Positions 1-46,564 of a stretch of DNA of 64,000 nucleotides are shown here, in pieces; position 1 is the first letter of the stretch, and each line of letters starts with the position of its first letter. Below the pieces are notes generated by a model. That model had not been told where the DNA came from and did no database searches. It saw nothing but the letters and a program-made list of their open reading frames with translations. Position numbers and translations under genes: made by a program. Source of the stretch: Granulosicoccus sp. (GTDB lineage Bacteria; Pseudomonadota; Gammaproteobacteria; Granulosicoccales; Granulosicoccaceae); NCBI GenBank assembly GCA_020627685.1, contig JAHDGK010000028.1, forward strand, positions 1 through 64,000. The letters run 5' to 3'.

Positions 1-591
1 GCCGAATACCGACTAAAACTGCGTGAAGACAATGCCGATTTGCGTCTGACTGAAAAAGGTCGAGAGTTAGGTCTGGTTGATGACATCCGTTGGGATGCCT
101 TCACGCGCAAATCGCAATCCATCGATTCCCTTAAGCAGGATATCCACTCGTTGTGGGTTCGACCGGACACAAAAGAGGCAAAAGCCCTGGCTGATTCCAC
201 TGGCATGAGCTTTCCTCGTGAAAAGCGGGCTAGTGACTTACTAAAAATGCCGGAAATATCGTTAGCCGGATTGCTGGAAATCATCTCACCGGAACATGCA
301 GCTCTAAACCCGCATGTTATCGAACAGGTAGAAATCCAGGGTAAGTACGCCGGATATTTGGATAGGCAGCAAGCCGATATCGACAAAACCCTGACACAGC
401 AGGAAATTCTGTTGCCGGAGTCTTTGGATTATTCACAGGTAACCGGGTTGTCTAATGAAGTGCTTCAGAAGCTGACAGATCATCGGCCACAGACCATTGG
501 CCAAGCGTCCAGAATCTCAGGTGTGACACCGGCAGCCATTTCGCTTTTGCTGGTGCATTTAAAGAAACATTCTTTAAAACAGAGCGCGTAG
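1..591 (+). CDS. mnmG: tRNA uridine-5-carboxymethylaminomethyl modification enzyme MnmG, C-terminal part
   Basis: Only the last 196 residues are present; the reading frame is open from the first base, so the gene begins outside the window. MnmG (GidA) works with MnmE to modify the wobble uridine of certain tRNAs. The visible part carries the family's C-terminal region: the segment around ADLRLTEKGRELGLVDD, then a motif near residue 105 of the fragment (EIQGKYAGYLDRQ) that belongs to the MnmE-binding helical domain, and a terminal helical bundle ending in LVHLKKH. It is followed after 3 bases by rsmG, the classic gidA-gidB pair near the origin of replication. The FAD-binding half is not visible. 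Confidence 0.96.
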   Translation, partial: AEYRLKLREDNADLRLTEKGRELGLVDDIRWDAFTRKSQSIDSLKQDIHSLWVRPDTKEAKALADSTGMSFPREKRASDLLKMPEISLAGLLEIISPEHAALNPHVIEQVEIQGKYAGYLDRQQADIDKTLTQQEILLPESLDYSQVTGLSNEVLQKLTDHRPQTIGQASRISGVTPAAISLLLVHLKKHSLKQSA

Positions 592-37039: not shown

Positions 37040-38668
37040 ATGATCAAGTCCCCCTTTTTAGTACTTGCCTTAAGCATGACTTCGGCAGGTGTATACGCCG
37101 ATACCTGCGGTGTCCCTAATCCTTCTAATGAATATCAGCTAGTCTTCGAAGAAAATTTCGATGGAGACGGCTTGGATCGTGGACGTTGGGAAACTGAGTT
37201 TCTATGGGGGCCCGGGGTAATCATTAACGGTGAAACTCAGTACTACGTTAATGACAATCAATTCGGTTACAACCCGTTTAAAGTATCCGACGGCTTGCTT
37301 TCCATTGAAGCGATAAAAACACCTTTTGACCGTTCACAGCTTTACCTAACACGTTCAATATACTCTGCTAACGCCGTTGAATTGTTGTGGCGTGTACCGG
37401 TAAACGCAACACTCTATGAAGTGTATAGAGATGGTGTGCTGCAAGGAACCGCAACGGGCGGTTCGTATCTCCAAACTGATTTACGCGATGGTATTGACTA
37501 TGCGTATGAAGTCGTTGCTTTAGATGACAATGGCAATGCACTGGTTACGGCGCAGCTAACGGTAAACACTGCTGATCGTCCAGCACCCGCACAACCGCAA
37601 CAAGCGTTTACATTGGGTTTAGACTCAAAAATATACTCGCCCACGGTTGCCGAAATCATTTGGCAGTCTCCTAATCGTGCAAACCGATACGAGGTATTCC
37701 GTAACGGCGAGTTGTACCGAACGCTTGTGGGTGCTGACTACAAAAGTTTATATGAAGTCGGCTTGCAAGAAGGTATTGACTATACCTACCGAGTTGCTGC
37801 GTACGATGGCTGTGATGAATTAATTATCGAGCAAACGCATACATTGAACACAGGTGATGGTGTCACGCCTGCGGATGCGCAAAGTGAAAGACTGGTCATT
37901 AAATCTTCCATCTATTCTGACCATACGGCCGAGATTAGTTGGAATGCTGTGCAGGGCGCGTCCAACTACGATATCTATGACAACGATGTCTTTATCGTGA
38001 ACAGTGATGCTCGTTCCTTATTTGTTGATGATTTAGTCCCCGGTGTCGACAGACGGTTCTTAGTCGTTGCGTTCAATGCTGACGGCGTTGAGGTGGATAG
38101 AACCAGCCGAGTGCTCAATACCGCAGACAATAGTTTTGCGCTAAACCGGCAGCCGTATCTCTCCGGTATCATTACCAGCTACAACTCTTTCCGGTTTAAA
38201 TACGGACGGGTAGAGGCACGTGCGCGGATGCCTGCTGGAAGAGGTTTGTGGAGCGCTTTTTGGTTGCTGAACGCGTACTACAAGCAAGACCAGCCGGAGG
38301 ATCCTGAGATCGATATCATCGAAGCGATAGGCGATCAGGTAACGACTGCAAATCATGCCTACCACTATCGAACAGACGCTGATGGCAGTGGTTTTTATAA
38401 CCAGCAATCTTCAACAGAAATGCGCGCCGAGATCAGTGACTTTTCGCAGAACTTTCACACGTATCGTGTCGATTGGGAAGAGGGTCGAATTGTCTGGTAT
38501 GTGGACGATGTTGAAACCGGTCGTGTGGAAGGTGATCAAGTGTCAGATGAGCAGATGTATCTTTTAGCCAACCTGGCAGTAGGTGGCGCTTTCCCGGGAC
38601 CAGCTGACAATACAACTCCATTTCCAGCACGCTTTGAGATTGACTACATCCGGGTATACCAACGCTGA
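37040..38668 (+). CDS. Glycoside hydrolase family 16 enzyme with inserted fibronectin-III-like modules
   Basis: A 542-residue secreted enzyme, probably an endo-beta-glucanase/laminarinase-type hydrolase. Signal peptide about 1-20. The first GH16 segment (about 28-97, LVFEENFDGDGLDRGRWE ... GLLSIEAIKTP) is separated from the rest (about 370-542) by three repeats of roughly 90 residues, each beginning near KIYSPTVAEIIWQ-type strands with YEVYRDG-type turns. The active site is intact: Glu423 and Glu428 in PEIDIIEAIGD, with the strand YGRVEARARMP before it and the terminal FEIDYIRVYQR. In ordinary family members the two segments are continuous. The insertion loop precedes the strand bordering the substrate cleft. 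Confidence 0.85.
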   Translation: MIKSPFLVLALSMTSAGVYADTCGVPNPSNEYQLVFEENFDGDGLDRGRWETEFLWGPGVIINGETQYYVNDNQFGYNPFKVSDGLLSIEAIKTPFDRSQLYLTRSIYSANAVELLWRVPVNATLYEVYRDGVLQGTATGGSYLQTDLRDGIDYAYEVVALDDNGNALVTAQLTVNTADRPAPAQPQQAFTLGLDSKIYSPTVAEIIWQSPNRANRYEVFRNGELYRTLVGADYKSLYEVGLQEGIDYTYRVAAYDGCDELIIEQTHTLNTGDGVTPADAQSERLVIKSSIYSDHTAEISWNAVQGASNYDIYDNDVFIVNSDARSLFVDDLVPGVDRRFLVVAFNADGVEVDRTSRVLNTADNSFALNRQPYLSGIITSYNSFRFKYGRVEARARMPAGRGLWSAFWLLNAYYKQDQPEDPEIDIIEAIGDQVTTANHAYHYRTDADGSGFYNQQSSTEMRAEISDFSQNFHTYRVDWEEGRIVWYVDDVETGRVEGDQVSDEQMYLLANLAVGGAFPGPADNTTPFPARFEIDYIRVYQR

Positions 38669-39482: not shown

Positions 39483-39716
39483 CTAGCGTTTCGACGGATC
39501 CGAACTGTCGAGTACTTTATTCATGGTTTCTGCGTTGCCGTGCTTTCTGGCTTCTTCTTCCAGTTCCCTGCTTTCAGAACGAACCTGGCAAATGTGCCAC
39601 CAGACCCAGAAGACAATGCCTGCAATCATGAGCGTTGTCTCCATTCCAACGAATGGATACACAGCGCCAATTTCGGACATGTTGCCTGTCCAACTTTCTA
39701 CATTTCCTGTTGACAT
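39483..39716 (-). CDS. Small single-pass membrane protein coupled to Amt
   Basis: A 77-residue protein with one membrane segment (about 24-42, METTLMIAGIVFWVWWHI) and a charged, helical C-terminal tail (ESRELEEEARKHGNAETMNK). Its ATG overlaps the amt stop codon by one base (TAATG), showing translational coupling. I recognise no family. It could be an Amt partner or regulator, in the manner of small subunits of other transporters. The tight coupling and the one-membrane-helix/coil design are the only evidence. Confidence 0.75.
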   Translation of the reverse strand: MSTGNVESWTGNMSEIGAVYPFVGMETTLMIAGIVFWVWWHICQVRSESRELEEEARKHGNAETMNKVLDSSDPSKR

Positions 39717-41125
39717 TATTTTTCTCCAGATGAGTAGGAAGCTAGAACGACCTCGCGCTCGGCTTCAACCATGGCTGCATCTTCATACTCCTGCGCGATA
39801 GCAGCAGATACATCCAAACCAACTATTTCTACGGCTTCCGGTACGCGGAGCATACCGAATGCTTTGAGAATAGAGGCAAAGACGAAACCCGGGATAAATC
39901 CGAGTACTAGGAACATGATGACTGCACCAATGAAGTTACCTAATGGATTGATGGTAGCGTAGTCAGGGTTGGGTGAGGCCGGGTAGCCCCACAACATAAA
40001 CCCACAAATGACGACACCCAGGAATCCGGCATAGCCGTGAACAGCAACTGCGCCTACTGCGTCATCAATTTTGAATCGGCGTTCGACCCAGAAATGCAAC
40101 TTGTAGATGATCACCACAACAACAGCTGCGATGAACATGGATTGTATGGGGTGGTATAAGTCGTTACCCGCTGATGCGCCGATGATACCGGCAAGACCAC
40201 CGGAGTAAGTCCAGAAAGCATCACCCTTAGAGACAAGGTACGCCGCCATCATGCCGCCTGCTAGTGACATCAGGAAGTTCAATGTAATGGCAGATAGAGT
40301 TGTCGGCCCTAAGTAGATGTTGGTTGCGGAAAATAATATTCCTTCACCGTCTTGTATGTCGATCATGGGGACATTACACGCGGCGTAAAAACCCCAGAAG
40401 CCGGTATAGATCAGGAATAAACCGACAGTGACCAACCATGGATTGCGTGGACCGATGTTTCGAGGGTTGCCGTCTTTATCGAACTTTCCGATGCGTGCTC
40501 CTAACGGTATGAGTACACCCAGAGCGAAACCACCAGCAACGGCGTGAATTACACCCGATGCATAAGCATCGTGATATCCGAGTTTTTGAACCATCCAACC
40601 ATCAGGGTGCCAGCCCCATGAAGCGTCGATAACCCAGAATACGGAGCCAATCAGAATGGCAAGAAACCAGAATGCACTGGAGCGTATGCGCTCTATGACT
40701 GCACCGGAAACAATGGATGCTGCTGTCCAAGAAAACAGCAGGAAGGCTGCCCAGAATACACCGTTAATATGGGCCCAGAATGCAGTGTCATCAGCAGTTA
40801 AAGCATCTTGTACGGGTGGTCCACCTAGGTGAGATCCCATCAATTCGCTATTAGCCGTTGCGAAAGGGGCTGCAAGCAGATCGCCGATTATCCAAGGACC
40901 GTTCGGGAAGGCAAAGTATATCCACCAGCCGAAGAAATAGAAGGTTACCGTGACCAGGGGTATGATCATGGTGTTTTTCATCAAGGTGTGCATATGGTTT
41001 TTCTGACGGGTGGCACCCACCTCGTACATGCAAAAACCAACGTGTATTAAAAACATGAATACTACTGTCACCCAGTAGTAGAACTCGGTAAACAATATTC
41101 CGAGCGCGGTTAACTCATTGTCCAT
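39716..41125 (-). CDS. amt: Ammonium transporter, Amt family
   Basis: A 469-residue channel-like transporter with 11 or more membrane helices. Amt signatures include DASWGWHPDGWMVQKLGYHDAYASGVIHAVAGG near residue 160 (the pore and conserved Asp/His region) and the second half with VHGYAGFLGVVICG, which carries the second pore histidine. It has a C-terminal cytosolic tail of about 40 residues. It lies at the end of the methylated-amine operon, where it could import ammonium or recapture ammonium/methylammonium. It has no GlnK gene next to it, unlike many amtB. Confidence 0.9.
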   Translation of the reverse strand: MDNELTALGILFTEFYYWVTVVFMFLIHVGFCMYEVGATRQKNHMHTLMKNTMIIPLVTVTFYFFGWWIYFAFPNGPWIIGDLLAAPFATANSELMGSHLGGPPVQDALTADDTAFWAHINGVFWAAFLLFSWTAASIVSGAVIERIRSSAFWFLAILIGSVFWVIDASWGWHPDGWMVQKLGYHDAYASGVIHAVAGGFALGVLIPLGARIGKFDKDGNPRNIGPRNPWLVTVGLFLIYTGFWGFYAACNVPMIDIQDGEGILFSATNIYLGPTTLSAITLNFLMSLAGGMMAAYLVSKGDAFWTYSGGLAGIIGASAGNDLYHPIQSMFIAAVVVVIIYKLHFWVERRFKIDDAVGAVAVHGYAGFLGVVICGFMLWGYPASPNPDYATINPLGNFIGAVIMFLVLGFIPGFVFASILKAFGMLRVPEAVEIVGLDVSAAIAQEYEDAAMVEAEREVVLASYSSGEK

Positions 41126-41320
41126 TAACTAACTCCGGTCGTGGTGATTAAGTGGTTTTGACCACGAACGGACAGGCACACAACGTTCTTAGATGTGACG
41201 TTATGCTTCAGCGTGAAAACTTATGCTGGTATCAGTTGTGGTCCTGCTTTATGAACTGCATTTAAAGAACGTGGTGAAGTATTTGAGTACTATTGAATCG
41301 ACTGTTTCTCCTGTGTTGGT

Positions 41321-42376
41321 TTAATCGGGGTGCGGGCCTTCCGAAGTGGGTTTTCCATCGTCAAATTGGGACAGCCAGTTGATTGCAATCTCGCGATAGT
41401 TATCAAGCCCTTTGTAGCTGGCAATTTCAGGTGGAAGAGTCTGAAGTACACGATGCATGCGAGTCGCCCACTTAGGTACCGTTGATAAATCCCTCATACT
41501 TAGAAAGTAACAACGGATTGGAAACAGCAAGGCATTAGAACGGGGTAGGCGCCAGAAGCTTTGAAGCTCTATTCGCAGGAATAATTTGTCAGCCACGTTC
41601 TCAGGCGTTATGTGTGTGTTCTCAGGGCCCCAGATGTGATAGTTCTCAGGGCTGGTATCGAGGCGAGGGTTAACGGTCATAGTCCAGTTAAGACGCCGTG
41701 CCGGATTACCTTGTTGGATACTGAGTAGGTATTTCAAGGCTCGCTTAAAAATACCTTTTTCATGAGCTAATGGGACAGGTGCATGCCATTCGAAGAAATT
41801 CATGCCGATGTCAAAGTCCAGTGACCAATCTGCCTGGGTAGTCACCATACCGGCGTCCATCCACAAGTTGCCGTCCCGCTCATCCAGTACACAAAAGTCA
41901 CCTTGCGCCTGACGAGTGATGTATTCAAGCGGCGCATAAGGGAGTGTGGATTCGTCGCCGAATACAAAGTGCTGATCAATGCCCATCGGGCGATTAACCC
42001 AGTGCCAGTTGTCACCGTCACGGGTTAATGAAAACCACTCAGGATAGGTTTCAGCTTTGCAGGTCATCAACAACTCAAGCGTATCCCACCCAGCCAAGGT
42101 CATGTGAGGCAGGCTTTGGTAACGCAGAGGATCCTCATCGAGAACCAAGGCGCGATCCTTCATTTCGGATACATAGTGTTCATCTACATCGATAGGGGCT
42201 TCATAGGCTGTGCCTGGACGACCATCTCGATGCAATTCCATATTGACTGCATACATGTATGAGTCTTTATCAAATGGAAAAGGGGCGCGTAGAACAGTTT
42301 CCGGTGAGTTCTTGAAGGTAAAGTCGTCTCTGAAGGTCTCTTCACGAAACGGTAAATCTTTGGCAGAAGTCGCCAT
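41321..42376 (-). CDS. dmmC: Dimethylamine monooxygenase subunit DmmC (haem-dependent oxidative N-demethylase-like, DUF3445)
   Basis: A 351-residue protein of the DUF3445/HODM alpha-subunit-like family, the haem-binding demethylase component. Conserved blocks include FPFDKDSYMYAVNMELHRDG, ITRQAQGDFCVLDERDGNLWMDAGMV, and a C-terminal motif LQSFWRLPRSNALLFPIRCYFLSM. Together with DmmA and DmmB it converts dimethylamine, O2 and NAD(P)H to methylamine and formaldehyde. It is the last dmm gene, in the order dmmD-A-B-C known from marine bacteria. Assignment of letters follows that gene order. Confidence 0.85.
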   Translation of the reverse strand: MATSAKDLPFREETFRDDFTFKNSPETVLRAPFPFDKDSYMYAVNMELHRDGRPGTAYEAPIDVDEHYVSEMKDRALVLDEDPLRYQSLPHMTLAGWDTLELLMTCKAETYPEWFSLTRDGDNWHWVNRPMGIDQHFVFGDESTLPYAPLEYITRQAQGDFCVLDERDGNLWMDAGMVTTQADWSLDFDIGMNFFEWHAPVPLAHEKGIFKRALKYLLSIQQGNPARRLNWTMTVNPRLDTSPENYHIWGPENTHITPENVADKLFLRIELQSFWRLPRSNALLFPIRCYFLSMRDLSTVPKWATRMHRVLQTLPPEIASYKGLDNYREIAINWLSQFDDGKPTSEGPHPD

Positions 42377-42446
42377 GTCTCTAAATCCTGTTGTTGTGCT
42401 TATTGCGTTAACAAAAAGAGTTCTAAATGAATTTCAAGTAGGCAGC

Positions 42447-43409
42447 TTATCGATCAAGTACCAGTCTGCTGCCTTTAAAGCGGGATACACACGGCATCAC
42501 TTTTTTACCGCTTGCTCGTTCGTCGTCTTCCAGCCAATGATCTTCATGTTGTAGATTACCGTCGCATTCCAGTACGTTTGTTTCGCACTGTCCGCAAGCA
42601 CCACCACGGCAAAGATAAGGGGCATCTACGCCAGCCGCTTCCATTGCCTCAAGCATTGACTGATTTTCACCAACCTCTATCTTTTTATTACTCGTCTGTA
42701 GTTCGACTGTAAAAGCTTCACCCGGCGGTGCTTTTGCAAAGTGTTCGAAATGGACGTGGGCATCTGGCCATCCATGAGCTGCACTTCGCTGGATGACGTG
42801 TTCGATCATCGGGGCCGGGCCGCATACATACACATGTGTGCCGGTGGGCTGCGAGCTCAATAGAGCGTCAAAATCAATGCGCTGATCTTGATCGTCGTAA
42901 TAGACATGCAGGCGATGGCCAAGCAGTTGTTTAAGTTCTTCTGAGTACGCCCCGAGTTCTTCGTTGCGGGCGCTGTAGTGAAGTTCAAAATTGCCGTTCG
43001 TCTTAATCAGTTGATGTATTTGCGCAAGAAACGGTGTGATTCCAATACCGCCTGCAAACATCAGGTGTTTGGGGGCGCGTTTGTCCAAAGAAAATAAATT
43101 GGCGGGATAGCCTATTTTCATGGACATACCCTTGGTGACCTTGTTGTGCATGAACAGCGAGCCACCGCGCCCCTCGTCATCTCTGCGAATACTGACTTGG
43201 TAATCTTGAGTGTTCAGGGGCGAGCTCATTAATGAGTACGGTGTACGTCTTATCGTGTCTCCGTCTTGCATCTCTATGACGATGTGAGCACCGCCTGAGA
43301 ATGCCGGTAAGGGGCTGCCGTCTGCTCTTGCGAAATGGAACCGCTTAATTAACGAATTCACGGTAACGACATCGGTGACTACAACGTCGAGGCTGGCGAG
43401 CATACTCAC
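42447..43409 (-). CDS. dmmB: Dimethylamine monooxygenase reductase subunit DmmB
   Basis: A 320-residue flavin/iron-sulfur reductase of the phthalate-dioxygenase-reductase type. The N-terminal FAD/FMN-binding barrel (about 1-100, with RRTPYSLMSSPL as flavin loop) is followed by the NAD(P) domain (about 105-225, GGIGITPFLAQI) and a C-terminal plant-type [2Fe-2S] ferredoxin with CRGGACGQCETNV and a downstream cysteine in MPCVSR. It passes electrons to the haem subunit. It overlaps dmmA by ATGA (4 bases). Confidence 0.9.
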   Translation of the reverse strand: MSMLASLDVVVTDVVTVNSLIKRFHFARADGSPLPAFSGGAHIVIEMQDGDTIRRTPYSLMSSPLNTQDYQVSIRRDDEGRGGSLFMHNKVTKGMSMKIGYPANLFSLDKRAPKHLMFAGGIGITPFLAQIHQLIKTNGNFELHYSARNEELGAYSEELKQLLGHRLHVYYDDQDQRIDFDALLSSQPTGTHVYVCGPAPMIEHVIQRSAAHGWPDAHVHFEHFAKAPPGEAFTVELQTSNKKIEVGENQSMLEAMEAAGVDAPYLCRGGACGQCETNVLECDGNLQHEDHWLEDDERASGKKVMPCVSRFKGSRLVLDR

Positions 43410-44020
43410 GAATATATCTCCTCTTTAGCAGGTACGTCTGACGGATCTTCTGCATTGATATTGACGCCTTGAAAGGCAGCCGCTCGTCTGGAGTAGTGAT
43501 CGCGTACAAAGAGTAGTAAGCCACAGTGATCGCAATCTGCGGGCTGGGTTGTGACATTTTCGGTAATGCCTTTGCAATGCACACACTGAACTCTTCGCGC
43601 TAGAGAGCCGCGATGTTCGGTTTGAAGCGCTTGGTGATCTAAGCCTGCTTCCATGGCTGTCATTGTTGCCATGCCTAAGAGACTTTCACTACCGCTAAGA
43701 TAGACTTGCGTCCCCATCCTCATTCTATCTAGAGAAGTTCTTAAGCGTGGTAAGGCAGCTGCGATACTCGGGCCGATATAAAGACGGGGACAGCCAAGTG
43801 CTTCAAGCCCGTCAATAACTGATTGATTGTTTTCTGAGTCGGTATTTACGTAAATAATTTCTGCATTGTTGAAAAAATCATCGGGTAAAGATTGAGCCAG
43901 TGACAGGATGGTTTCACCACCACTGTCATCAGCGACAAACACGTGAAAGTTTGCCTCTACCGGGGATAAGGTGCCGTATCGAGGTCTACTCAAGATGGCC
44001 GAATCGTCTGGCTGACTCAT
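43406..44020 (-). CDS. dmmA: Dimethylamine monooxygenase subunit DmmA
   Basis: A 204-residue protein of the DmmA-like group. The N-terminal domain (about 15-135) resembles a small nucleotide- or partner-binding alpha/beta domain. The C-terminal part is a zinc-ribbon-like module with four cysteines in VQCVHCKG and ADCDHCGLLLFVRDHYSRR. It overlaps the reductase gene dmmB by 4 bases and is 26 bases after dmmD. Call is by order and cysteine pattern. Confidence 0.8.
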   Translation of the reverse strand: MSQPDDSAILSRPRYGTLSPVEANFHVFVADDSGGETILSLAQSLPDDFFNNAEIIYVNTDSENNQSVIDGLEALGCPRLYIGPSIAAALPRLRTSLDRMRMGTQVYLSGSESLLGMATMTAMEAGLDHQALQTEHRGSLARRVQCVHCKGITENVTTQPADCDHCGLLLFVRDHYSRRAAAFQGVNINAEDPSDVPAKEEIYS

Positions 44021-44046
44021 GTCTATTTTTACCCTTTGTCTATCTT

Positions 44047-45180
44047 TTAGCCTTTTACCGTGCGGCGTGATTTGTCAACGTCATAGAACGGCATTGCCGC
44101 GGCCTTACAGTTGATCAATCCCGTGCTGTTTTTAACTTGTAAAGCGGTGCCCGGTGTAGCGCAATCAACTGGCATACGAGCGATGGCCACATTGTGCTTT
44201 TGCAAAGATGAATACATACCAATGGTTGCGACACCCACTTGCTTACCATCTTGCATGAGTGGTGCACCTTCTTCAGCGGGCTCTTCTCCATCTAGGATCA
44301 AGCCATAAATTTTGAATCTTTCTTTACCCTTTAAACGGTAGTGTTCTTCAGCGCCACGAAATCCAACTTTTCCTTCTGATACCGTAAAGTCCAGACCAAG
44401 CTCCCAAAGAGTGTCGCCAGGGCCTTCGTTTTCAAACGGATAAGTTTCAGAGTTGTCGTAGGGGTAGAACAGCAAGTAGCTTTCTGCGCGAAGCAAATCT
44501 AGTGTTGTGAATCGCGTTGGAATGATGCCCATGGAAGCACCTTGTTCTACGATGGTGTCCCAGATGTCCGGTGCATCTTGACCACGGCAAAAAATCTCGT
44601 AACCGCGCTCGCCGGTGTAGCCGGTTCGTGAAATTGTCACCGGATGACCGAATAGTCGCGTTGGCATATGCCCGAAGTATGGAAGCTGACGAATGCCGTC
44701 TACATGTTTTTCAAGGAAGTCTACTGATAGTGGTCCCTGTAGTGATATGTCATGCAGGTTGTCATCAAAACGTATAGAAACATCACGCCCAACTGCGGCC
44801 ATAGTTAGTTGTTCGTGTCCGGCTCCTGAGCCATGAACAACCATGTAGGTGTTAGCGCCGGTTCTATAGATAACGCAGTCATCGACAAATTTTCCGTCAT
44901 CATTGAGCATGCAGGCATAAGATGCGCGTCCCGGAGAAATACGCTCAACGTCGCGGGTTGTTGCACGATCGATAACATGAGACGCATGTGCACCGGAGAT
45001 ATGAACCTTCTTTAATCCAGAGACATCCATAACACCCGCTTTTGTTCGGATGGCGATGTACTCTTCTTCCTGGTCTTTGTCATAGGTCCAGGCGGTACCC
45101 ATGCCACTCCAATCTTCAAGGTTTGAGCCTAGAGCGCGATGTCGATCGGCCAAGGCAGAAAAACGCCAGCTTGCAGTCAT
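44047..45180 (-). CDS. dmmD: GcvT-like tetrahydrofolate-binding protein DmmD
   Basis: A 377-residue protein of the aminomethyltransferase (GcvT) family. The opening MTASWRFSALADRHRALGSNLEDWSGMGTAW and later motif SRTGYTGERGYEIFC are GcvT hallmarks, with the C-terminal domain from about 290. It would trap the formaldehyde released by dimethylamine oxidation as methylene-tetrahydrofolate. It starts the dmm block behind gmaS, 73 bases away, with a hairpin in between. Confidence 0.85.
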   Translation of the reverse strand: MTASWRFSALADRHRALGSNLEDWSGMGTAWTYDKDQEEEYIAIRTKAGVMDVSGLKKVHISGAHASHVIDRATTRDVERISPGRASYACMLNDDGKFVDDCVIYRTGANTYMVVHGSGAGHEQLTMAAVGRDVSIRFDDNLHDISLQGPLSVDFLEKHVDGIRQLPYFGHMPTRLFGHPVTISRTGYTGERGYEIFCRGQDAPDIWDTIVEQGASMGIIPTRFTTLDLLRAESYLLFYPYDNSETYPFENEGPGDTLWELGLDFTVSEGKVGFRGAEEHYRLKGKERFKIYGLILDGEEPAEEGAPLMQDGKQVGVATIGMYSSLQKHNVAIARMPVDCATPGTALQVKNSTGLINCKAAAMPFYDVDKSRRTVKG

Positions 45181-45208
45181 GGTTAACTATCTCCGGTTGG
45201 TATATTGA

Positions 45209-45229
45209 GTGAGGAAAAATTCTCCTCAC
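45209..45229 (-). other. Stem-loop between gmaS and dmmD
   Basis: GTGAGGA (45209-45215) pairs with TCCTCAC (45223-45229) around a 7-base loop in the gap between gmaS and dmmD. On the minus strand it is not followed by a T run, so it is more likely an mRNA processing or stability element than a terminator. Confidence 0.5.
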
Positions 45230-45253
45230 ATTGTGTTGTTTACGTCGTGGTGA

Positions 45254-46564
45254 TTAGCAGTCGAGCGTGTTGTCACGTTCCCATTGAGTCAGACTCGTTG
45301 CATATTTATTCCAATCGTTTCTTCTCAGCTTGCAATAGGCTTCGCTAAACTCGCTGCCCATCGCGTTTTGCAATACGCTGTCTTTTTCGTAGTTGCGAAT
45401 AGCATCGAGAAGATTCAACGGAAGTTTTTTAACGTTGTCGCCAGCCAACTCCGGGTTGGCGTACATATCGTTATCTAAGCGTTGCCCTGATGGAATCTTG
45501 TTATCGACTCCGTTCATGCCAGCAGCCAAAATCACTGCCATGAGCAAGTATGGGTTAGCAGCTCCATCAGGCAGACGCAATTCAATGCGGCCGTCATCCG
45601 GGATGCGGATCATGTGTGTTCGGTTGTTGCCACCAAAGGTAATGGAGCTTGGTGACCAAGTAGCGCCAGAGAGCGTTGGAGGCGCATTGATTCGCTTGTA
45701 AGAATTGACTGTTGGATTAGTAATTGCCGCTAAGGATTCCCCGTGCTCCAGTAGACCACCGATGAAGTGGTAAGCCTCTGCAGATAAGCCAAGCTCACCG
45801 GCGTCATCACTAAAACGGTTGGTTTTACTGTCGTTACTCCAAACGGATATATGTACATGACAACCATTACCCGTAAGGTGTGAAAACGGCTTGGGCATGA
45901 AAGTGGCGCGAAGGCCATGCAACTCTGCAATGGACTTAACCATAAACTTAAAGAACGCCAGCTGATCTGCTGTGGTTAGTGCGTCATTAAAATCCCAGTT
46001 AATTTCGAACTGACCGTTGGCGTCTTCATGGTCATTTTGATAAGGACCCCAGCCCAGTTCGGTCATGGTGTCGCAAATTTGTGAGATCACATCGTAGCGA
46101 CGCATAACGGCTGATTGGTCGTAGCAAGGTTTTTCCTGCGTGTCCCGGTCATCGGAGATTTCAGTACCATCAGGCGATATAAGATGAAACTCTGGCTCAA
46201 CGCCAGATTTCATCAACATGCCTTTGCTGGCAGACTCGGCCATCAAACGTTTTAGAACGTTGCGTGGCCCTTGTGCGACAGGCTCACCATTCATCCACGG
46301 GTCACCGGCAATCCAAGCAACTTCCGGTTTCCACGGTAACTGGATTACAGAATCCACGTCGGGCATAACGAACATATCAGGATGAGCCGGCGTGAAGTCT
46401 AGCCATGCCGCAAAACCTGCGAAGCCTGCGCCGCTTTTCTGCATGCCGCCAGCCGCCGCTGCGGGCACAAGCTTGGCTCGTTGAGTGCCAAACAAGTCGG
46501 TAAAGTTAAACAGGTAATACTTAATGCCACGCTCTTTGGCCAGGGTCGTCAAGTTTTGGGTCAT
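45254..46564 (-). CDS. gmaS: Gamma-glutamylmethylamide synthetase GmaS
   Basis: A 436-residue member of the glutamine synthetase superfamily, type III/GlnT-like, which joins methylamine to glutamate with ATP. Conserved catalytic blocks are present: GVEPEFHLI (metal-binding Glu), NDHEDANGQFEINW, HLTGNGCHVHISVW and NRTHMIRIPDDGRIELRLPDGAANPYLL. Context decides the amine specificity: it lies between the N-methylglutamate synthase genes and the dimethylamine monooxygenase genes. The alternative is glutamine synthetase or another gamma-glutamyl ligase. Length is as in known GmaS. Confidence 0.88.
   Translation of the reverse strand: MTQNLTTLAKERGIKYYLFNFTDLFGTQRAKLVPAAAAGGMQKSGAGFAGFAAWLDFTPAHPDMFVMPDVDSVIQLPWKPEVAWIAGDPWMNGEPVAQGPRNVLKRLMAESASKGMLMKSGVEPEFHLISPDGTEISDDRDTQEKPCYDQSAVMRRYDVISQICDTMTELGWGPYQNDHEDANGQFEINWDFNDALTTADQLAFFKFMVKSIAELHGLRATFMPKPFSHLTGNGCHVHISVWSNDSKTNRFSDDAGELGLSAEAYHFIGGLLEHGESLAAITNPTVNSYKRINAPPTLSGATWSPSSITFGGNNRTHMIRIPDDGRIELRLPDGAANPYLLMAVILAAGMNGVDNKIPSGQRLDNDMYANPELAGDNVKKLPLNLLDAIRNYEKDSVLQNAMGSEFSEAYCKLRRNDWNKYATSLTQWERDNTLDC

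Follow-up and report, generated by a model that had tools for sequence, protein, structure and literature searches.

A gene in the window (the whole 64,000-nucleotide stretch of Granulosicoccus DNA analysed here) encodes an exported GH16 enzyme with three fibronectin-III-like (Fn3) modules set inside its catalytic domain. Sequence, phylogeny and a predicted model together show that the domain is split, that the split arose once in Granulosicoccaceae and is conserved there, and that the two halves make one GH16 fold. Taken as a whole, the evidence makes it rather probable that the protein is a secreted split GH16 endo-beta-glucanase carrying a docked, disulfide-closed Fn3 arm with a structural or positioning role. 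The layout of the gene and its product is summarized in Table 1.

Table 1. Gene, domain and motif positions of the split GH16 enzyme in the window.
Feature	Residues	Position	Strand	Basis
Exported GH16 enzyme with Fn3 insertion, whole gene	542 aa	37040..38668	+	ORF, Pfam, orthologue alignment
Signal peptide	1-20	37040..37099	+	read by eye; ADTC invariant among orthologues
Cys23, invariant, one of two mature-chain cysteines	23	37106..37108	+	orthologue alignment
GH16 N-terminal half, NEYQLVFEENFDGD ... LLSIEAIKTPFDR	30-98	37127..37333	+	PDB matches, alignment, model
Fn3-1	99-180	37334..37579	+	repeat comparison, conservation, model
Fn3-2	190-274	37607..37861	+	repeat comparison, conservation, model
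Cys258, invariant, in Fn3-2 between the last two strands (FG loop)	258	37811-37813	+	orthologue alignment, model
Fn3-3	283-361	37886..38122	+	Pfam fn3 match 293-353, repeats, model
Return hinge ADNSFALNRQ, nearly invariant	362-371	38123..38152	+	orthologue alignment
GH16 C-terminal half, begins PYLSGIIT	372-542	38153..38665	+	Pfam, PDB, alignment, model
Catalytic motif EIDIIE (E423, D425, E428)	423-428	38306..38323	+	alignment

One GH16 domain around three Fn3 modules

A standard domain scan catches mainly the C-terminal half of the enzyme. The Pfam GH16 profile (PF00722) begins only at residue 358 and extends to 504 (85.8 bits against a cut-off of 22, E 3e-24), and all 13 orthologues match it. 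The PDB laminarinases 4dfs and 3azx match residues 371/372-541 strongly, while their first strands match residues 30-79, separately and weakly. Alignment against 31 intact GH16 domains (viral-contig loci) identifies residues ~30-98 and ~367-542 as two GH16 halves, and the 265 columns of the insert hold only 0-10 residues in each of these intact domains. E423, D425 and E428 of the ExDxxE motif are invariant in 44 GH16 rows. As for the group within the family, the top sequence and structure matches are laminarinases, as in the laminarinase/beta-1,3(4)-glucanase group (GH16_3); assignment to the EglC endo-1,3-1,4-beta-glycanases (NF052454) was rejected at 138.4 bits against an equivalog cut-off of 700. 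The signal peptide is likely cleaved after VYA-20, with DTC opening the mature chain.

An AlphaFold2 model of all 542 residues, built from the 44-row alignment, has a mean pLDDT of 87.2 and a pTM of 0.74; in the two GH16 halves and in the Fn3 modules most strands score 80-98. It is used here instead of an earlier model from 13 close orthologues (pLDDT 70.5 in the GH16 part, pTM 0.51). With VIA-align, model range 30..542 superposes on the continuous laminarinases 3azz, 6jh5 and 6jhj (Z 30.6) over 220-227 of 231-250 residues, with an rmsd of 1.6-1.8 A and both halves covered, and on crystal laminarinases overall over 220-228 residues (Z about 30); Foldseek aligns 6t2n across 532 columns (TMt 0.74). 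The VIA matches listed are filled by GH16 rows, with Fn3-only chains absent, and have no bearing on the Fn3 modules. From this superposition it follows that the N-terminal part is GH16, and both halves are confidently predicted to form a single GH16 beta-jelly-roll around the insert.

The initial annotation had placed three Fn3-like modules inside a GH16 domain, with boundaries at about residues 97 and 370, in the loop ahead of the SG-I-T strand, here (Y)LSG-IIT. Alignment and model bear out the interruption and the insertion site, with both halves contributing to one catalytic domain, and the boundaries are correct within a few residues. The structure prediction that it had proposed shows the halves folding together around the inserts (Z about 30 in the predicted model), and its contrary case, an N-terminal part that is not GH16, falls away with the GH16 identity of residues ~30-98 in both alignment and model.

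Only the third inserted module matches the Pfam fn3 profile (residues 293-353, 26.9 bits against a cut-off of 25); modules 1 and 2 are assigned to Fn3 by repeat similarity and by their Fn3-like strand order in the model. Repeat identities are 31/79 between Fn3-1 and Fn3-2, 24/79 between Fn3-1 and Fn3-3, and 25/79 between Fn3-2 and Fn3-3; the three modules are homologous repeats. Each contains one Trp, and the three are mutually aligned at the usual core position.

Distribution and origin of the insertion

One full-length copy each is present in 19 of the 48 genomes of the order. The carriers comprise 16 of the 27 genomes of the window's genus and three of the four genomes in two other genera of the family; within these 48 genomes, the remaining three genera contain no insert-bearing protein. 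The search for carriers covered order, class and phylum (Pseudomonadota) genomes, plasmids and viral contigs, with other phyla thinly represented. Among the matches listed for 369 class-level and 398 phylum-level genomes, the insert is not spanned outside the family, and in the 40 cases in which both halves are reported (paralogues included) they are separated by -5 to 112 bases. In the plasmid records no single place covers 80% of the query; tblastn matches that seemed to enter the insert (Skermanella, 277-541; Indioceanicola, 325-542) were rejected as intact GH16 domains. Plasmids and viral contigs, a partial look beyond Pseudomonadota, hold no second case of the insertion, and the solved GH16 chains that an intact paralogue matches, some of them only partly, give no sign of one. 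The literature searched contains no description of a natural Fn3 insertion in GH16. These searches agree with the earlier suggestion that insertion inside GH16 is unusual: similar architectures were found nowhere outside Granulosicoccaceae, and none of the other GH16s examined carries the same insertion, contrary to the second counter-case that the initial annotation had named, many known GH16 enzymes sharing it.

One viral contig has an ORF (L140, 1374-3650, minus strand) encoding a GH16 that carries ~75 additional residues beyond profile position 215, close to where the domain ends at its C-terminal side; this is a different kind of interruption.

In an IQ-TREE phylogeny of 84 GH16 domains, calculated without the insert, all 19 proteins that bear it form one clade (100/100), which is nested in a Granulosicoccaceae group (98/95). 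In 9 of 12 loci the gene has the MFS and DSBA-family genes upstream of it. Based on the single clade and the conserved upstream genes, the insertion most likely arose once and was then inherited.

The window's own genome has 11 GH16 matches, and some relatives have many more. In the paralogues read, Fn3-like or other modules precede an intact GH16; one of them has SIETPPELASKSLNQPYLSGVIT at the site that in the window protein is occupied by SIEAIKTPFDRSQ, the insert and then ALNRQPYLSGIIT. Laminarinase genes were reported absent in a study of kelp MAGs that included Granulosicoccus (PMC9238374), whereas the Granulosicoccus genomes here are rich in laminarinase-like GH16 genes. The contrast may come from annotation thresholds or different lineages.

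The neighbours of the gene are glmU/glmS, EamA, MFS, a DSBA-family protein, a peptide-type binding protein and an HTH-cupin regulator, and on these identities a polysaccharide-utilisation cluster was rejected. The DSBA-family neighbour is not counted as a disulfide maker, as no signal peptide is seen in it by eye. Elsewhere in the window, positions 39716-46564 of the minus strand encode an ammonium-transporter-like protein, a ferredoxin reductase, a DmmA-family protein (108 bits, cut-off 60), a GcvT/TMAO-demethylase-like protein and a type III glutamate-ammonia ligase, likely a methylated-amine cluster.

Constraint on the inserted arm and its possible role

Mean pairwise identity among orthologues is 0.69 in the GH16 N-terminal half, 0.64 in Fn3-1, 0.51 in Fn3-2, 0.56 in Fn3-3, 0.95 in the hinge (362-371) and 0.74 in the C-terminal half. 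Conservation is thus highest at the joints and not across Fn3-2 and Fn3-3, and that of Fn3-1 nearly equals that of the GH16 N-terminal half. Despite the near-invariance of the hinge, its residues 365-367 have pLDDT <50. The pN/pS ratio is 0.06-0.36 over all segments and 0.10-0.36 in the inserted modules, with synonymous sites mostly saturated; purifying selection acts on every segment. The loop is 278-281 residues long in 13 orthologues, as against 5-52 in 96 intact GH16s.

All 19 insert-bearing proteins have exactly two mature-chain cysteines, 23 and 258. Most intact GH16 domains of Granulosicoccaceae paralogues are without cysteine. A conserved pair in an exported protein points to a Cys23-Cys258 disulfide, which would tie the arm down; alternatively, the two residues could form cross-links between separate molecules.

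The mechanism that we propose is as follows. The gene product would be a secreted laminarinase-like GH16 endo-beta-glucanase acting on a beta-1,3 or mixed beta-1,3/1,4 glucan, the substrate that its family makes likeliest. The chain exits the jelly roll at the short loop that follows the LSIEA strand, passes through the three Fn3 domains and re-enters at the (Y)LSG strand. The return hinge and Fn3-1 may dock on the catalytic domain, and the Cys23-Cys258 disulfide may pin Fn3-2 to the beginning of the mature chain. With their start and end bound at one loop, the three modules would then make a closed, rigid arm. Most tentatively of all, this arm may be a structural or positioning element, and not a carbohydrate-binding module of the classical type; it would orient the enzyme, limit access or stabilise the fold.

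The initial annotation had suggested an extra substrate-binding or specificity unit, that is, an arm that is CBM-like or extends the cleft and holds polymeric glucan or shapes nearby subsites. In favour of such a role, the loop leads into a strand of the catalytic sheet, and the hinge and Fn3-1 are highly conserved. However, each Fn3 module has only its single aligned core Trp, no conserved surface-aromatic platform stands out in the orthologue and repeat alignments, there is no excess of conserved aromatics, and Fn3-2 and Fn3-3 are the most variable parts, with the joints most conserved. Moreover, the inserted CBMs of Pm25 and SusG are described as largely independent of the catalytic domain (PMC7848910). 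The suggestion, which has a counterpart in GH10 with an inserted CBM4 (PMC7848910), is therefore not supported so far, and we regard it as doubtful. A rigid structural or positioning arm fits best because conservation lies at the joints, the cysteine pair is fixed and the alignments show no aromatic platform that is conserved; between the two roles, a fixed structural arm is the likelier.

It is also conceivable that a permissive loop tolerated the insertion as a nearly neutral accident, in which case the arm would be only a spacer. The GH16 fold tolerates a break here, since circularly permuted structures open at about the same loop (see below), the loop of paralogues already varies in length, up to 52 residues, and the lower conservation of Fn3-2 and Fn3-3 is likewise compatible with a mere spacer. 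The constant length of the insert, the pN/pS of its modules, the invariant cysteine pair and the near-invariant hinge make this improbable. As the split itself is unusual, one may ask whether there is one enzyme at all, rather than a gene fusion, an artefact of assembly or an inactive remnant whose catalytic domain is broken. An assembly error is excluded because the same architecture recurs in 18 other genomes at 58-84% identity, which makes 19 in all. Further, the reading frame is intact, the catalytic residues are kept, purifying selection operates and the model gives a confident single jelly roll; the chance of this explanation is minute, and for practical purposes it is already refuted.

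A more speculative and rather unlikely extension of the structural arm is that, closed by its disulfide, it works as a fixed clamp and thereby alters access to the subsites or the substrate length preference of the GH16 glucanase. If true, this would be a natural jelly-roll hydrolase re-tooled by inserted, not appended, accessory domains. The intact paralogues in the same genome offer controls for the effect of the inserted Fn3 arm on a glucanase, and the question bears on how seaweed-associated Granulosicoccus handles algal glucans.

The insertion site in relation to known systems

In polysaccharide-degrading enzymes, accessory modules are as a rule appended. The laminarinases of T. maritima (3azx, 3azz), P. 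furiosus (2vy0), Zobellia (ZgLamC, 4crq) and the marine LamCAT (6jh5) share the fold and the ExDxxE motif with the window protein (Z about 30, 30-36% identity over both halves). They are all continuous, however, and have no domain in the loop that follows the LxI strand, the loop that holds the insert in the window protein. The Granulosicoccaceae paralogues with an N-terminal Fn3 (e.g. the C62 gene, L055) come from the same genome and the nearest tree group, their GH16 halves are closely alike, and the Fn3 of C62 is related to window Fn3-1 (21/64 identical). In these paralogues the Fn3 lies before an intact GH16 with a loop of about 15 residues (TPPELASKSLNQPYLSG), whereas in the window protein it lies inside.

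Other changes occur at the same loop. Three paralogues (L053, L054 and L058; C73, C78 and C97 in the own genome) have ~12 extra residues and a cysteine pair there, e.g. VCDEVDPSGLDRC, probably a loop disulfide. An 825-aa ORF (L056; C104 in the own genome) has two tandem GH16 domains with unusually long loops (52 and 39 residues) at the insert site. The three paralogues suggest that this loop is a hot spot of change in the family.

About the same loop is where the chain is opened in circularly permuted GH16 lichenases, both natural (Fibrobacter; 1mve, 3axd) and engineered (cpA16M-59; 1cpm, 1cpn), and in GluXyn-1 (1axk), a GH16 laboratory construct with an inserted xylanase; the original papers on the permutants and GluXyn-1 are cited in PMC2213659. 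Residue 12 of 1cpm is residue 70 of the unpermuted chain, and residue 13 of 3axd corresponds to query residue 381. The new N-terminus of 1cpm and 1cpn thus falls at the re-entry strand, ~11 residues ahead of residue 386 of the query, and 1axk, 1mve and 3axd begin within a few residues of that opening point. These are permutations or a laboratory construct, without a natural Fn3 insertion; a conserved natural insertion at about their loop suggests a general break point of the GH16 fold.

The nearest parallels in principle are GH10 Xyn10C-type xylanases with an inserted CBM4 (Pm25) and SusG with CBM58 in its B domain (PMC7848910). Like the window protein, they have an accessory domain within a glycoside hydrolase catalytic domain. 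Unlike it, they are built on a TIM barrel with other inserted modules, and Pm25-type enzymes come from Bacteroidota PULs. The Granulosicoccaceae insertion is thus a real, clade-specific variant of a known principle, the insertion of accessory domains in hydrolases.
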